Source: Phycisphaerae bacterium
GTDB lineage: Bacteria > Planctomycetota > Phycisphaerae > UBA1845
Length of the DNA: 64,000 nucleotides
Direction of reading: 5' to 3'
Assembly: GCA_029260165.1 (NCBI GenBank)
Contig: JAJDDT010000055.1
Span: forward strand, 1-64,000
A model generated the notes under the pieces. The model saw nothing but the letters and a program-made list of their open reading frames with translations, searched no databases and was not told where the DNA came from. The position numbers were made by a program, and so were the translations under genes. Shown here one piece after another: positions 33,520-55,113 of the stretch. The stretch's first letter is position 1. The number at the start of each line of letters is the position of its first letter.

Positions 33520-33963
33520 ATGATTCTATCCACGAAAGAGGGGAAATCCGTTACCGGTGGGAGCGGCAAACCAACCCGGCTGGGGTTGATCCTGGTTTTG
33601 GGGTTGCTTGTTTGTGCCGGCTGTGGTCCTCGGGAGGCGAACGTTGCTGTTCGATTGCAGCGGAAGGCGTCGGTCGATCGGATACGGGAAATTCGCCGGA
33701 TTGATGCGTCCGGGGATGCGTCGTCGGTGTCGTTGCTGGTCCAGCGTCTGGACGACGGGGATTCAGCGGTTCGGTTTGCGGCGATCATAACGCTTGAGCG
33801 GATAACGGGCGAACGGTTAGGGTATCGGTATGGCGCTTCTTCCGTGGACCGCGGGGAGGCAGTGGGACGGTGGCGGGCGTATGTCGAGGATCGTGCGGCG
33901 GGGCAGCGGGCATTGACCATACCGGGAGAATTGTCCGGTTCGCAGGGCGTTGTGACCCAATGA
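33520..33963 (+). CDS. Small lipoprotein with HEAT-like repeat
   Basis: 147 residues from the ATG at 33520 (a GTG one codon earlier is possible). The lipobox is in LGLILVLGLLVCAGCGPREA. SVSLLVQRLDDGDSAVRFAA followed by IITLERITG is one clear HEAT/PBS-lyase-type repeat, a protein-binding fold. Its TGA overlaps the ATG of the following kinase gene (33960-33963). It is the first gene of the long plus-strand run that leads into the Mla genes. Confidence 0.6.
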   Translation: MILSTKEGKSVTGGSGKPTRLGLILVLGLLVCAGCGPREANVAVRLQRKASVDRIREIRRIDASGDASSVSLLVQRLDDGDSAVRFAAIITLERITGERLGYRYGASSVDRGEAVGRWRAYVEDRAAGQRALTIPGELSGSQGVVTQ

Positions 33964-34382
33964 TGAAACAAAACACGATGCGCATCAGAAGTCAACCGTG
34001 CGAATTAGCAGCGGTGCGCGATTGTCTGGAGCTGCGCGCGTGCGAGATCGGTTTTTCGTCAGACGACGTTAGCGGAATCATATTGGCGGTGGACGAAGCG
34101 CTGGCCAATGTGATCCGACATGGTTACGGTGGTGCGTGCGAAAAGCCAATCGACGTCGAAATCGGGTGTATTGAGGCGTCTGCCCGGGCGGGGATTTGTA
34201 TTCTCATCCGTGATTATGGGAAACAGGTCGATCCGGCGGACATCGTTGGCAGACCGCTGGAAGACGTTCGGCCGGGTGGACTCGGCGTGCACATCATTCG
34301 CAGTATCATGGACGAGGTGGACTACAGGCCCGCCGACGGTGGGGGTATGTTGCTTACGATGAAGAAATCAGTTCAACCATGA
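33960..34382 (+). CDS. RsbW/SpoIIAB-like serine kinase (HATPase)
   Basis: 140 residues. A GHKL ATPase of the anti-sigma kinase type. The N box is LAVDEALANVIRHGY, the G1 box is ILIRDYGKQVDP and the G2 box is RPGGLGVHIIRSIMDEVDY. It overlaps the genes on both sides by 4 bases (ATGA). The usual role is to phosphorylate a Ser in a STAS-domain antagonist, which here is the next gene. No sigma factor gene lies nearby, so its output may be something other than sigma control. Confidence 0.8.
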   Translation: MMKQNTMRIRSQPCELAAVRDCLELRACEIGFSSDDVSGIILAVDEALANVIRHGYGGACEKPIDVEIGCIEASARAGICILIRDYGKQVDPADIVGRPLEDVRPGGLGVHIIRSIMDEVDYRPADGGGMLLTMKKSVQP

Positions 34383-34717
34383 GCGATCTCATTCAGTGTG
34401 TTGAGAAGAGTGATCACGGTACGGTCGTCAGTCTGTGCGGTGACATTGATCTGCATCATTCCCCGGCGTTGCACCTTGCGTTGGCGAACCTCTGTGCTGA
34501 AGAGCCGAAACGACTGATACTCAAACTTGCCGACGTCAGCTACATCGATTCGTCCGGGATCGGATCACTGGTCGAGATTTATCGACGGATGAAAAAGACA
34601 AACGGAAGCCTGGTGCTGGTGTCGCCGAGTGAACGCGTTCGCAGCGTGCTTGAAATCACACGTCTGGACAAGTTTTTCCCGATTGCCGCGTCGGAGGAAG
34701 AGGCTTCGGGGTTGTGA
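34379..34717 (+). CDS. STAS-domain protein (anti-sigma antagonist / MlaB-like)
   Basis: 112 residues. STAS fold: VVSLCGDIDLHHSPALHLAL, then the phosphorylation loop LADVSYIDSSGIGSLVEIYR with the conserved Asp-Ser-Ser-Gly. It overlaps the kinase gene by 4 bases upstream and mlaE (GTG at 34714) by 4 bases downstream. Two readings fit: an antagonist of the RsbW-like kinase, or an MlaB-type subunit of the ABC transporter encoded next. The loop Ser is retained, so phosphorylation is possible. Confidence 0.8.
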   Translation: MSDLIQCVEKSDHGTVVSLCGDIDLHHSPALHLALANLCAEEPKRLILKLADVSYIDSSGIGSLVEIYRRMKKTNGSLVLVSPSERVRSVLEITRLDKFFPIAASEEEASGL

Positions 34718-35568
34718 GCGAGTCGCCGACGAATCGATCGGGATTCCTGAGCAGGGCCGTCGAGCATGTGGGGGAGTTTGCCTACGCGAGAGTCGATCAT
34801 CTTGGTGCCGGTGTTCGCTACATGGGTGGGATGGCGTTTTTGTTTTGGGACACCTGTGTCTGGTCCTACCGTGGGTGGTTCGATCCGAGAATCAAGTTTG
34901 GGTGGTCGTCCCTGACCGCGCAGATGGTTCGTGTCGGGGTGAAGAGCGTTGGCATTGTCTGCATCGTCGAGATTTTTATCGGGGTCATTCTCGCCCTTCA
35001 GCTCGCGCCGACCTTGAAAACGTATGGGCAGCTTGAGCGCGTGGCGGACGTTGTTGCGATCGCCATTGTTCGCGAGTTGGGACCGTTGTTGACGGCGATT
35101 GTGTTGAGCGGATTCGCCGGTGCGTCGATCGCGGCGGAGGTGGGCGCGATGGTCGAATCCGAGGAGATCAAGGCGCTTCGGGCGCACGCGCTGAATCCGG
35201 TACGATTTCTTGTCGTTCCGCGATTTATCGCCACGACGATGATGATCGTCATTCTCTGCGTTGTGGCTGACTACGTTGGTGTGTTCGGGGGGTTCCTGAC
35301 ATCGGTTTACATTCTCGATGTTCCCCCGCAGTTGTATATCACGCTGACGCAATCAGCGTTGCGAACGACGGATTTCGTGACGGGACTGGTCAAGGCGGGG
35401 GTGTTCGGTGCGGTCATTGCGTTGATTGCCTGCTACGAGGGGTTCCATGTCACGGGCGGACCTGCCGGTGTCGGTCGTGCGACAACGTCGACCGTGGTCA
35501 AGTCGATTGTGGCGTTGATCGGCATCGACGCGGTGTTCACGGCTGTCTTTTACGCTCTGGGGATTTAG
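34714..35568 (+). CDS. mlaE: MlaE-type ABC transporter permease
   Basis: 284 residues. The MlaE/YrbE family inner-membrane permease for phospholipid movement between the membranes. Family hallmarks are AIAIVRELGPLLTAIVLSGF, ASIAAEVGAMVESEEIKALR (the coupling region) and CYEGFHVTGGPAGVGRATTS. Five to six hydrophobic helices are present. The GTG start overlaps the STAS gene stop. Confidence 0.92.
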   Translation: MSESPTNRSGFLSRAVEHVGEFAYARVDHLGAGVRYMGGMAFLFWDTCVWSYRGWFDPRIKFGWSSLTAQMVRVGVKSVGIVCIVEIFIGVILALQLAPTLKTYGQLERVADVVAIAIVRELGPLLTAIVLSGFAGASIAAEVGAMVESEEIKALRAHALNPVRFLVVPRFIATTMMIVILCVVADYVGVFGGFLTSVYILDVPPQLYITLTQSALRTTDFVTGLVKAGVFGAVIALIACYEGFHVTGGPAGVGRATTSTVVKSIVALIGIDAVFTAVFYALGI

Positions 35569-35578
35569 GGGACTGGTT

Positions 35579-36451
35579 GTGTCGGAACAAGACGTTGCCA
35601 TATCCGTTCGCGATCTGCGAAAGTCGTTTGCCAGGCCTGATGGAACCGAGATTCAGGTTTTGAAGGGCGTTACTGTCGATGTGCTTCGCGGTGAGACACT
35701 GATCATCATGGGGGGAAGCGGGTGCGGCAAGAGCACGTTTCTCAACTGCCTGATCGGTGAATACGAGATCAGCGGCGGGGAGATATTGTACCAGACGAAG
35801 AAAATGGAAGCGCCCCGCGACATCGGGAAAATGGACGAGGCGAATCTGAACGAGCTGCGCATGTCGATCGGAATCCTTTTTCAAAGTGGGGCGTTGTTCA
35901 ATTCGATGACGGTGGCTGACAACGTGGCGTTGCCGTTGATCGAGCATTCGTACGTCGATCAGTCGATTATTGATATCGTCGTCACGCTCAAGCTGCAACA
36001 GGTCAAGATGCTCGCGCATCGCGACAAGATGCCGTCACACTTGTCGGGTGGGCAGAAGAAACGCGCGGGGTTGGCGCGGGCGACGGCGCTTGATCCGGAG
36101 ATTCTGTTTTACGACGAACCGTCGGCAGGACTCGACCCTGTGACGAGCGCTGCCATCGACGAGTTGATGATGGACCTGTCCAAGAAGCTGCATGTGACGA
36201 CCGTGGTCGTGACGCACGAGATGGACTCGGCTTTTCGCATCGCCGATCGTATGGTGATGCTTGAACAGGGGAGAGTGCTCCGCATCGGAACGCGCCAGGA
36301 TTTTGAAACAATCCGCGACGCTGACCCGCGCGACATGACCACGCAGGACGACCAGTTGATTCATCAATTTCTCAACGGAGCCAGCTCCGGTCCGTTGACC
36401 GACGCCGAAGGAATGACGGAATTTGAAAAACTCATCCGAGCCGACGGGTAG
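35579..36451 (+). CDS. mlaF: MlaF-type ABC transporter ATPase
   Basis: 290 residues from the GTG at 35579. Walker A is MGGSGCGKSTFLNC, the signature is HLSGGQKKRAGLARA (the KKR form typical of MlaF), and Walker B is EILFYDEPSAGLDP. The H-loop is VVVTHEMDSAF. An insertion after Walker A (SGGEILYQTKKMEAPRDIGK) is also seen in other Mce-associated ATPases. The gene lies 10 bases after mlaE. Confidence 0.93.
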   Translation: MSEQDVAISVRDLRKSFARPDGTEIQVLKGVTVDVLRGETLIIMGGSGCGKSTFLNCLIGEYEISGGEILYQTKKMEAPRDIGKMDEANLNELRMSIGILFQSGALFNSMTVADNVALPLIEHSYVDQSIIDIVVTLKLQQVKMLAHRDKMPSHLSGGQKKRAGLARATALDPEILFYDEPSAGLDPVTSAAIDELMMDLSKKLHVTTVVVTHEMDSAFRIADRMVMLEQGRVLRIGTRQDFETIRDADPRDMTTQDDQLIHQFLNGASSGPLTDAEGMTEFEKLIRADG

Positions 36452-36515
36452 GTCTCGCGTCGCAGGCGGAAGTGGTTAAGATACGCCGTTTGGGTCGGTC
36501 GGATGCGATTGCAGG

Positions 36516-37874
36516 ATGCCCTGGATGGCTGGTCAGCGAAACACGTTTCAACTTGGATTGGTCATCATCATCGGTGTTGGACTGACGGTGTTTGGGCTGA
36601 TGTTCGTCAGCACGCGAACGTTTGAGGAACGGACGCCAATCGTCGTTCGCATTCCGCACAACGAAAACGTGCCTCGTCTCAAACCGGGCGTGCCCATCAT
36701 CTGCGGTCCGCAAAAGGTTGGAACGGTGACCGGGGTTCGGATGGTCGAGTCTGTGTCCGACATGGACCCGACCGTGCAGGATTTCCTGTATTTCGAGGTC
36801 CGAGGTGAGGTCAATCAGTCCCTGGGTCTTCGCGAGGACTGCCGCATTTCCGTTGAAGGGTCACTTCTCGGGGATCAGGGCATGCTGCGGATAGAGGATC
36901 GGGGAACGTCCGCGACGCCAATATCGGCGGACTCCCCAATTATCGCGCGCTCAGAGGGACTGTCGACGACGCTGGACATGATTTCACGCGAGTTGGACAG
37001 TGGTAATCCGGATGGGATTCTGTCGCAGGTTAAATCGCAACTCGACCCCAATGCTCCGATTTCTCTGATCGCCAAGGTTCATCGCAGCATCGATCACATC
37101 AACGCGATGACGAACAATCTGAGCATGGCGGCTGATCCGGGTAGCGAGAACGGCGTCCTGTCCAGGCTCAATAACATTATGGATCATCTGGACAGCGTGT
37201 CATTCGCACTTGATCAGGAATTACATCGTGGCGACGGTGATGTTCTACTGGGCAAGGTGCACTCCGGTCTGGATCGTCTTGACCTTGCGTTGAGCGAAGT
37301 TGTCGGCATTTTACAGGATAACAGACCCGGGATTTACGCAACGATTTCGAACATTGAAGATGTCGCCGAAAAGGTGAACACCGGGATTCTGCCGACCATC
37401 GAATCGCAACTCGATACAACCGATGAGGCTGCCCTGCTGTCGAAACTTCATCTCGCCCTCGACCGGGTCAACGCGTCTCTTGATGATATGAACGTCATCT
37501 CTGGAAAAGTTCGCACGGTGACGACCGTTGGTCAGCATCAGGCCGTCGCCATGATCGATAATTTCAAGGAAGCCAGCGATCATCTCAAAAGCGTCGCCAG
37601 GACGCTTCGCGAGAAACCGTGGAAACTGATCCACAAACCGGACGAAAAAGACACCAGGGAAGCCTATGTGCTTGACGCGGTTCGCGGTTTTGCAAACGCC
37701 TCGGAGACTCTTGACGGCGCTCTCGCGCAACTGACCGCGGTTTTGGAGGATCAGGAGGGTGACGTTCGCAGTGATGAGCCCTCGCTGGTACAGGCTCGCG
37801 AACGACTTGAGCGAGCCATCGAGCAGTTTGGGGCAGCGGAGCAGAAGCTCTGGAGCCAGTTGGAATTCGAGTAG
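36516..37874 (+). CDS. mlaD: MlaD-type MCE-domain protein
   Basis: 452 residues. An N-terminal membrane anchor (LGLVIIIGVGLTVFGLMFVS) is followed by one MCE domain (about 40-130): PRLKPGVPIICGPQKVGTVT and ISVEGSLLGDQGMLRIED. The remaining 300 residues are predicted long helices (LSRLNNIMDHLDSVSFALDQ) that could form a periplasmic tube or needle, as in larger MCE proteins. It is much longer than E. coli MlaD (183 residues). It completes the permease-ATPase-MCE set; MlaC and MlaA are not in this window. Confidence 0.88.
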   Translation: MPWMAGQRNTFQLGLVIIIGVGLTVFGLMFVSTRTFEERTPIVVRIPHNENVPRLKPGVPIICGPQKVGTVTGVRMVESVSDMDPTVQDFLYFEVRGEVNQSLGLREDCRISVEGSLLGDQGMLRIEDRGTSATPISADSPIIARSEGLSTTLDMISRELDSGNPDGILSQVKSQLDPNAPISLIAKVHRSIDHINAMTNNLSMAADPGSENGVLSRLNNIMDHLDSVSFALDQELHRGDGDVLLGKVHSGLDRLDLALSEVVGILQDNRPGIYATISNIEDVAEKVNTGILPTIESQLDTTDEAALLSKLHLALDRVNASLDDMNVISGKVRTVTTVGQHQAVAMIDNFKEASDHLKSVARTLREKPWKLIHKPDEKDTREAYVLDAVRGFANASETLDGALAQLTAVLEDQEGDVRSDEPSLVQARERLERAIEQFGAAEQKLWSQLEFE

Positions 37875-37892: not shown

Positions 37893-39029
37893 ATGAACGG
37901 GGGCATTGTTGTGAGTGGTGATGCGGAGATTTTTGACGTTTTGATTGTCGGTGCCGGCCCCGCCGGCGCGACGGCAGCGATTCGGTTGGCCTCTCAGGAA
38001 CGCAGCGTCAAGTTGATCGACGCCGCTCAGTTTCCCCGGTCTGCTCCGTGCGCGGGCTGGCTTGGTTCCAAAACAAAAGAACTACTCAATGACCTCGACA
38101 TTAAGATTCCCGCCAAATTGACCCATGCGTTCAAAAACGTCACCTTTCACTCCGCCGACCTGTCGAAGACCGCCAGGCCCAACTTCGAGACCGCCCCCGG
38201 CATTCTTGTCGACCGCAATGATTTCGACCTTGCGCTGATCAAACAAGCCAGGTCTGCCGGTGCGAAACTTGCCGAAGGACAACCGGTGGCGGAGTTGCAG
38301 ATCGACGAAGACTCTGTGACAGCCACCCTCGCTGATCATGGGACGGTCACCGCAAAGCTCCTCATCCTTGCCACCGGAAGATCGACCCACCTGTTCGATC
38401 GCATCGGCCTGGCTGGTGGTCCACCAACCACCGGTTATTGGGCGGCGGAGGTGCGCGTCGACAAGCTGCCGCTGAAAAAAACACCGACAGTCGATATTGT
38501 TCTTGGTCTGGACCGATCGGGGGCGTTCGGAGTCGTTGTCGCAGTCGGTGACCGGCTCGTCATCAACGTTCATTGTCCTGGTCAGAAGTCTGACGTCATT
38601 CCAACGCTGATCTCATTGTGCCGGCAACTGGACGACGCCGATCTCGTCCCCGGTAATTACACACACAACGCCGCCCGAGCGACCGTGCACATGACACCGG
38701 CTGCTGCTGCGCTGGGCATGGACACGCACGTCGCCAAACGCACGCTCATCGTCGGGGACGCAGGTGGATTCGTTTCAGCCGCCAGCGGCGAGGGCATCTA
38801 TCCTGCCATGTGGTCGGCACGCATCGCGGCGGAGGTTATCAACGATGCCATCGATGCGCCGAGTCCGCAGGACGTGCTCATGCAGTTCAACACACGCTGG
38901 CGGACCGAAATGGCTGAATACCTGCAACCGCCCAATACCGATCTACAGTACCTGCTCCCGTTGATCTTCTCGAATCAGCCCATGACTGACCGAATGGGGG
39001 CTGCCTTTTTCTCGGGTGAGAACATTTGA
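37893..39029 (+). CDS. Geranylgeranyl-reductase-like FAD-dependent oxidoreductase
   Basis: 378 residues. The FAD-binding motif is VLIVGAGPAGATAAIRLASQ. Then PRSAPCAGWLGSKTKELLND has a Cys-Ala-Gly near the flavin. VDRNDFDLALIKQA and the second FAD motif VGDAGGFVSAASGEGIYPAM follow. This is the pattern of GG-reductase/hydroxylase flavoproteins acting on isoprenoid or lipid double bonds. Its location behind the Mla genes hints at lipid metabolism. Its TGA overlaps the TTG start of the next gene. Confidence 0.8.
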   Translation: MNGGIVVSGDAEIFDVLIVGAGPAGATAAIRLASQERSVKLIDAAQFPRSAPCAGWLGSKTKELLNDLDIKIPAKLTHAFKNVTFHSADLSKTARPNFETAPGILVDRNDFDLALIKQARSAGAKLAEGQPVAELQIDEDSVTATLADHGTVTAKLLILATGRSTHLFDRIGLAGGPPTTGYWAAEVRVDKLPLKKTPTVDIVLGLDRSGAFGVVVAVGDRLVINVHCPGQKSDVIPTLISLCRQLDDADLVPGNYTHNAARATVHMTPAAAALGMDTHVAKRTLIVGDAGGFVSAASGEGIYPAMWSARIAAEVINDAIDAPSPQDVLMQFNTRWRTEMAEYLQPPNTDLQYLLPLIFSNQPMTDRMGAAFFSGENI

Positions 39030-54115: not shown

Positions 54116-54418
54116 TTATTCAACCACGAATTGTCCATCCAGACTCATGATTTGAAAGAGCTTCTTCAAATCGTCACTCGCGTTGAACACGCGAATTTTC
54201 CCCTTCTTCTTCTTCGAGAGCGTCTTGTGACAAACCACAAACACCGACAGCCCCCGCGAATCGATAAAATCGACCGCCTCAAGATTGACCGCGATCTCCA
54301 CAAATCCCTCGTCCACCTTGTCCTGGAGTTCCTGACGAAACTCCTCACAACGTGCGGCTGTTATGGGACCCTCTGGTCTTACAATGCACTCTTTTGACGC
54401 TGTTGTTTCCTGATTCAT
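54116..54418 (-). CDS. STAS-domain protein in the chemotaxis operon
   Basis: 100 residues. STAS core: IVRPEGPITAARCEEFRQEL, then LEAVDFIDSRGLSVFVVCHK. The loop Asp-Ser is kept, but the second Ser of the usual DSSG is Arg. It lies 12 bases after an RsbW-type HATPase gene and 54 bases before cheA, on the same strand. Together they look like a partner-switch pair built into the chemotaxis operon. Confidence 0.8.
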   Translation of the reverse strand: MNQETTASKECIVRPEGPITAARCEEFRQELQDKVDEGFVEIAVNLEAVDFIDSRGLSVFVVCHKTLSKKKKGKIRVFNASDDLKKLFQIMSLDGQFVVE

Positions 54419-54430
54419 GAACTCACCTGT

Positions 54431-54874
54431 CTACTTTTTATCATCTTCAACCAAACCCGAATCATCACTGCGAAACAGTTTTCGAAGCGTAACTTCATTA
54501 CCCTTGTCATTGAACTCCATAACGTCCGAATACAACTTCATGAGTGGAATCCCCCTCCCGCCGTCCGATAAGACTTCACGGGTATTCGGCAACCGATCAT
54601 GCACAAACCCAGGTCCGTTATCGGACACCCTGATGGTGACCCCCTCAGCATCCACCCTCACGTCCAACGTCCCACACCCGGTGGTTTCTTCTCCACCACC
54701 ATGAACCACGGCGTTCATGACCGCCTCGCGAAGCAGAATACGCACTGCAAAAAGGTCAATGGGGTCGCCCCGGGCCGTCAGGAAGCTGATCACACGACGA
54801 TCGGCTTCCTCGATTGCCTCCAAAGACGATTCGATTTCAAGCGAGAGCCTGTCCTTCTCTTCAACGATCGACAT
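54431..54874 (-). CDS. RsbW-like HATPase kinase in the chemotaxis operon
   Basis: 147 residues from the ATG at 54874. The N box is REAVMNAVVHGGGEET, the G1 box is VRVSDNGPGFVHD and the G2 box is LSDGGRGIPLMKLYSDVMEF. A GHKL kinase of the HATPase_c_2 type. It is the first gene of the minus-strand operon that runs through STAS, cheA, cheW, the receptor, cheB and cheR. No sigma factor gene adjoins. Confidence 0.8.
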   Translation of the reverse strand: MSIVEEKDRLSLEIESSLEAIEEADRRVISFLTARGDPIDLFAVRILLREAVMNAVVHGGGEETTGCGTLDVRVDAEGVTIRVSDNGPGFVHDRLPNTREVLSDGGRGIPLMKLYSDVMEFNDKGNEVTLRKLFRSDDSGLVEDDKK

Positions 54875-55113
54875 CGGAAATACTCCCGTATCCTGCCAAC
54901 GACGCACACCGCGATCCATGAACCTATGATGATCGCTCCTCGCGCAGTTTCGCAGTCTCTCCCTACTCGGCGTTTTGGTATGACGTCTTCTTCAAATTCA
55001 GGGTCCGGCACACGGCTGTATTTGAAATAACGTTGCACTCTGAATCGGTCGAAATCCTGGTACGGATATGAGCACCTGGCCGGCACTCACGGGAACGTAA
55101 GGGACCAATAATC

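Follow-up and report, generated by a model that had tools for sequence, protein, structure and literature searches.

In the MlaFEDB system of Escherichia coli the ATPase MlaF binds the STAS protein MlaB via helices 1-3, centred on Thr52, and the phosphomimetic exchange T52E at this residue, which lies near the centre of the MlaF interface, weakens MlaF binding (PMC7367683). Phosphorylation of MlaB has been proposed in E. coli, without a kinase (Thong 2016; Kolich 2020; PMC5016091, PMC7367683). Here we report on a cluster of six genes at positions 33520-37874 of a 64,000-nucleotide stretch of DNA (the window) from a Phycisphaerae bacterium (GenBank assembly GCA_029260165.1, contig JAJDDT010000055.1), in which genes for an RsbW/SpoIIAB-type kinase and a STAS protein run directly into mlaE. 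Judging from the sequences, we propose, with a probability of about two in three, that the cluster encodes a partner switch whose client would be the Mla lipid ABC transporter (MlaF) and not a sigma factor.

The locus resembles the E. coli system in that a STAS protein is encoded together with mlaE, mlaF and mlaD, MlaF carries an extension with a hydrophobic helix, and a Ser or Thr stands at the T52 position. It differs in that a kinase, and in other phyla often a PP2C phosphatase, is encoded in the operon, whereas E. coli is not known to have a dedicated enzyme of either kind, and in that the STAS protein is of the full SpoIIAA/RsbV type, whereas E. coli MlaB is a short four-stranded STAS protein, distant in sequence. 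With the Bacillus partner switches RsbU-RsbV-RsbW-SigB and SpoIIE-SpoIIAA-SpoIIAB-SigF it shares the three protein families (PP2C phosphatase, kinase, STAS protein) and equivalent contact residues, but here there is no sigma factor, and genes of a lipid ABC transporter adjoin. Partner switches with unusual clients are already known. SiaABCD of Pseudomonas aeruginosa comprises a PP2C phosphatase, a kinase, a phosphorylatable switch protein and a client that is not a sigma factor, namely a diguanylate cyclase, but is unlinked to mla genes. In SypE-SypA of Vibrio fischeri a kinase and a PP2C domain on one protein act on a single-domain STAS target, but this system controls biofilm formation, its middle domain is REC and not GAF, and it too is unlinked to mla genes (PMC10120452, PMC4517449).

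In the open-access literature (subscription papers and preprints were outside the scope) we found no paper joining MlaE and RsbW, and nothing relevant on MlaE and SpoIIE or on MlaB and a serine kinase beyond Thong 2016 and Kolich 2020. A text search of a survey of Mla systems in 1083 genomes turned up neither a kinase nor an anti-sigma protein.

The kinase and the STAS protein

The six genes, all on the + strand, encode in this order a lipoprotein, the kinase, the STAS protein, MlaE, MlaF and an MlaD-like protein. An earlier note on this DNA had read consecutive 4-base overlaps between the first four, and these are real: stop and start codons overlap in ATGA at 33960-33963 (lipoprotein-kinase), in ATGA at 34379-34382 (kinase-STAS) and in GTGA at 34714-34717 (STAS-mlaE).

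The kinase gene (33960-34382; PF13581, 3e-24) encodes a HATPase_c_2 fold with a SpoIIAB/RsbW-like N box containing the catalytic Glu45 (codon 34095-34097) and the Mg-binding Asn49 (codon 34107-34109; residues counted from the ATG at 33963). Its best NCBIfam models are RsbW and SpoIIAB, with scores under their equivalog cut-offs, and its profile finds RsbW (6m36, 1.7e-14) in the PDB. The fold of its structural model is closest to SpoIIAB (Z 18.9, root mean square deviation 2.2, 129 residues aligned) and also matches the SiaB-SiaC structure 6kko (Z 13.9). In 119 kinases linked to mla genes, Glu45 and Asn49 are invariant (119/119 each) and Arg19 is nearly so (117/119).

The STAS protein (34379-34717; 112 amino acids; PF01740, 4e-24) scores above the cut-off of the anti-sigma antagonist model TIGR00377 (4e-26). 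It has a full-length STAS fold, the Asp, Arg and Tyr of the kinase contact (among them D24, codon 34448-34450, and R86, codon 34634-34636, as placed by alignment) and an acceptor Ser in a DSxG motif: the DSSG loop that the earlier note had called intact is present at residues 57-60 (codons 34547-34558), with Ser58 (codon 34550-34552) as the predicted phospho-acceptor. Of the 119 Mla-linked pairs, 113 have Ser and 6 have Thr at position 58. The model fold resembles TM1442, SpoIIAA and RsbV (Z 18.9, 18.1 and 17.4) and P. aeruginosa MlaB with Z 12.7 over 97 residues. Against the curated MlaB model NF033618 the protein scores 21 bits (E 3e-4; cut-off 90), and MlaB chains are reached by profile only with E 0.005. 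By sequence and model fold the protein is therefore of the SpoIIAA/RsbV type, and membership of the MlaB family was rejected; the description "MlaB-like" holds as a proposed role and fails as a family name.

Since kinase and STAS protein most resemble anti-sigma and anti-anti-sigma proteins, the cluster might be an ordinary sigma switch, in which the kinase, as an anti-sigma factor, would hold back a sigma factor encoded elsewhere, with the operon merely coupling the state of the envelope to transcription. The operon contains no sigma factor, in line with the earlier note, and the SigB/F/G model TIGR02980 was over cut-off in none of 60 genomes of relatives, a result that leaves other sigma classes as possible clients; matches below the threshold look like RpoD and other classes, and other sigma factors do exist in the genome. 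As a cognate sigma factor of the SigB/F/G class was not found in the genome, the kinase is not filed as an anti-sigma factor. The conserved translational overlap between STAS gene and mlaE, the STAS genes that stay with mlaE after loss of the kinase and the matching extension of MlaF (all described below) likewise argue against a sigma switch, which we regard as improbable.

Distribution of the gene order and of the phosphatase

The loci of the 60 relatives that correspond to that of the window were annotated with hidden Markov models built in this analysis; mlaE is present in 59/60. The order lipoprotein-kinase-STAS-mlaE was found in 25 loci and lipoprotein-STAS-mlaE without kinase in 11, and the 4-base overlap of STAS gene and mlaE recurs in 27 of these 36. 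A wider search with a kinase profile in 294 genomes of the phylum recovered the linkage in other classes as well. A subsequent scan with one genome per species gave 80 loci selected by their kinase; in 71 of them, spread over at least ten named phyla, STAS gene and mlaE directly followed the kinase gene. This share does not apply to kinases of the type in general, because the profile had been seeded with Mla-linked ones. The named records nearest to the window in kinase sequence and gene order belong to Phycisphaerae (Planctomycetota). Kinase, STAS and mlaE genes lie on the same strand in all 122 loci that hold the three. Chance gene order, for which the conserved overlaps and the common strand leave little room, was rejected. 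The earlier note had called for a survey of this kind and had allowed that the arrangement might be unique to the genome; it recurs, and in many phyla with a phosphatase added.

Weaker kinase matches behave differently: of eight (L111-L118) one is Mla-linked, and in most of the STAS proteins encoded beside them ISSAG stands in place of DSSG. In three loci (L099, L104, L108) the order is rearranged, yet mlaF lies directly beside the STAS and kinase genes, and in two families kinase-STAS-mlaE occurs without an adjacent mlaF. One locus (L179, 799-1701) contains a natural kinase-STAS fusion in a single frame upstream of mlaE.

No gene for a PP2C phosphatase is present in the operon of the window; nine SpoIIE phosphatases are encoded elsewhere in the genome. 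Outside Planctomycetota a GAF-SpoIIE (PP2C) gene usually stands directly before the kinase gene (L160, L168, L172, L173, L186, L188, L191, L197), as in loci of KSB1, UBP3, Syntrophobacteraceae, Nitrospinota, Auribacterota, Nitrospirota and Calditrichota. The two proteins are fused as kinase-GAF-PP2C in L099, L103 and L104, with the gene order mlaF-STAS-fusion in L099 and L104, and as GAF-PP2C-kinase in L174, L185 (Terasakiella pusilla DSM 6293) and L187; that the domains are arranged in opposite ways suggests that the fusions arose separately. Three loci of Verrucomicrobiota (L159, L163, L198) combine a PP2C protein with this type of kinase, with no STAS gene or mlaE recognised adjoining.

The two proposed partners of the STAS protein

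In the RsbV-RsbW crystal structure, RsbW grips its STAS partner via loops and helix 3 around the acceptor Ser, and RsbW Arg23, Asp42, Lys44/Ser48, Glu49 and Tyr118 bond RsbV Asp23, Arg84/Arg87, Tyr53, Ser56 and Ile91 (PMC7340262). By alignment the RsbV contacts correspond to D24, R86, Y55, S58 and I93 of the STAS protein; RsbV Asp23 and Arg84, the equivalents of D24 and R86, hydrogen-bond RsbW (PMC7340262). A scan of 33 conserved STAS columns, made without prior knowledge of this contact list, placed D24 and R86 at the top: both are kept in 25/25 loci with the kinase and each in 3/11 without it. I93 and Y55 rank within the first seven too, which brings the listed contact positions found there to four of five. 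On the MlaE tree D24 and R86 never changed on branches with the kinase, against five times on branches without it (uncorrected p 0.0036 each, with 99 columns tested); when kinase loss and D24/R86 were compared over independent pairs, the events were too few to reach significance.

Mean-field covariation over the 119 pairs ranked kinase D44 with STAS Y55, the equivalent of RsbW Ser48-RsbV Tyr53, first of 13,755 residue pairs, with z 6.7, which is not significant as a score on its own, because one of five shuffled pairings reached it, so that what counts is which pair came first. An Asp at residue 44 goes with Tyr at residue 55, and Thr, Val or Gln with Phe; an acidic residue 44 is found with a basic STAS residue 86 in 79/100 pairs, against 2/19. 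A pairing of kinase and STAS protein in the RsbV-RsbW mode is thus well supported at the level of aligned residues.

Such contacts speak for binding and not for catalysis, and RsbW-type kinases also work by sequestration. The STAS protein could then be a constitutive MlaB-like subunit that the kinase mainly binds and holds (titration, ATP/ADP sensing), with phosphorylation minor or absent, and the 11 loci that keep the STAS protein without a kinase would fit. We consider this unlikely: throughout the 119 pairs both catalytic residues are invariant and a Ser or Thr occupies position 58, and the phosphatase that many phyla have next to the kinase or joined to it would have little to do if nothing were phosphorylated.

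For the other proposed partner the evidence comes from MlaF. E. coli MlaF has a C-terminal extension whose last part is a helix, with Tyr261, Leu265 and Leu266 at the MlaF-MlaB interface (PMC7367683). MlaF of the window (35579-36451; ABC_tran, best equivalog model MlaF) has an extension at about 36380-36448 that likewise closes with a hydrophobic helix; it corresponds to the MlaB-touching part of the E. coli protein. MlaF from one locus (L089) aligns with the E. coli protein at a constant offset, ungapped to the end, with Phe/Leu/Leu at Tyr261/Leu265/Leu266. In STAS-bearing systems the tail after the conserved F-L/V/I has a median of 25 residues, and the strict hydrophobic-helix pattern occurs in 37/48, most others being near matches. 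In STAS-less paralogues the median is 16 and the pattern occurs in 1/31, that one being a STAS-type locus cut at a contig end. Loci that lost the kinase keep the STAS gene, mlaE and the MlaF extension.

The families without an adjacent mlaF could mean that the target of the switch is MlaE, the lipoprotein or some client not listed here. If the STAS protein acts on MlaF, however, a partner MlaF must exist elsewhere, and this was so in all six genomes tested, each having exactly one window-type MlaF with the extension, its gene followed by mlaD in three. Moreover, E. coli MlaB contacts MlaF (PMC7367683), mlaF lies directly beside the STAS and kinase genes in the three rearranged loci, and the MlaF extension tracks the STAS protein. 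We regard a client other than MlaF as improbable. By analogy with E. coli and from the sequences we infer that the STAS protein binds MlaF. Of the earlier idea that partner switching is wired to a lipid transporter, the kinase-STAS half is thus well backed by the residues, and the STAS-MlaF half is favoured indirectly, by the extension, the retention of the STAS protein without kinase and the adjacency of mlaF and STAS gene in the rearranged loci.

In the proposed partner switch the STAS protein would have two mutually exclusive partners on overlapping faces. Unphosphorylated, it would dock on MlaF in the manner of E. coli MlaB and render the transporter competent; the kinase would bind the same STAS protein and phosphorylate Ser58 of the DSSG loop, whereupon the STAS protein would leave MlaF and transport would stop. 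A GAF-PP2C phosphatase would reset it, in this organism probably one of the nine SpoIIE-type proteins. Since RsbW binds around the acceptor Ser and MlaF around the equivalent Thr, the two partners should compete if both modes hold here. Phosphorylation of Ser58, the sign of its effect on transport and the input signal are inferred by analogy; the choice of the unphosphorylated form as the active one is taken from E. coli, where T52E weakens binding and complex assembly requires MlaB, and is complicated by T52A. We lean towards the view of a widespread system in which the kinase/PP2C pair directly controls phospholipid transport by switching the STAS subunit between kinase and MlaF, and in which the kinase is the first for an MlaB-type subunit.

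Several observations weigh against this proposal. MlaB T52A abolishes ATPase activity in E. coli and is still bound to MlaF (PMC7367683), so that the acceptor site may not be a simple phospho-switch. Loss of the acceptor Ser alongside the kinase was not seen: it is kept in 11/11 kinase-less loci and thus has another role there. On the MlaE tree the presence of the kinase changed about four times, at least two of them on supported branches, and the D24/R86 result therefore rests on few events; related sequences also inflate the covariation counts. A Phycisphaerales group (L139, L144, L150, L155, L178, L189) has kept the kinase, with G/A at STAS position 24 and an acceptor Thr in xTPG or xTAG. 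Twelve window-type loci among the relatives lack either the kinase or the STAS gene, and the module is dispensable in these. Beside the kinase-GAF-PP2C fusions, MlaF of L099 (2586-3506) and L104 (4796-5701) has a Cys-rich, zinc-ribbon-like CxxC...CxxC tail in place of the usual extension, and Veillonella MlaF carries an extension too, a shorter one, although MlaB is absent. Extension and STAS protein could also have been inherited together from early in one MlaF clade, with no functional tie.

Other genes of the locus and the possible meaning of the linkage

MlaE (34714-35568) is the permease (PF02405, 2.5e-69). The earlier note had placed MlaF and MlaD downstream; for MlaF this stands, and the MlaD-like protein (36516-37874) has no Pfam MlaD match by itself, but its orthologues match PF02470 (L109, 1e-8), so that from position and orthologues it is MCE-like. 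Permease, ATPase and MCE protein of an Mla/MCE transporter are thus encoded in one operon, the last as judged via orthologues only. A gene for a FAD (flavin adenine dinucleotide) enzyme of the geranylgeranyl reductase family follows mlaD (37893-39029), as in many family members.

The open reading frame at 33520-33963 encodes a lipoprotein with a signal peptide, an LVCAGC lipobox and a weak HEAT repeat (HEAT_2, 6e-5, below the Pfam cut-off). It is the conserved first gene of the loci in Planctomycetota, where this HEAT-type lipoprotein occupies the slot in which other phyla have the phosphatase; nearly all relatives, kinase-bearing and kinase-less, have a homologue of it with a clear lipobox Cys.

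The genome (4.43 Mb) contains a second mlaE-mlaF-mlaD operon, without STAS gene (L078). A second pair of STAS protein (PF01740, 8.5e-14) and HATPase_c_2 kinase (7e-17) is encoded at 54119-54991 on the - strand of the window; it is not Mla-linked, and IDSRG replaces DSSG.

With the cognate kinase, and in many phyla also a sensor phosphatase, encoded in the operon, the question of MlaB phosphorylation becomes directly testable, also in the cultured Terasakiella pusilla DSM 6293. If the proposal is true, ABC transporters join the clients of partner switching. The linkage in at least ten phyla suggests that lipid traffic may be switchable by phosphorylation of one part of the transporter, and it offers the missing kinase for the open question of the E. 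coli Mla system.

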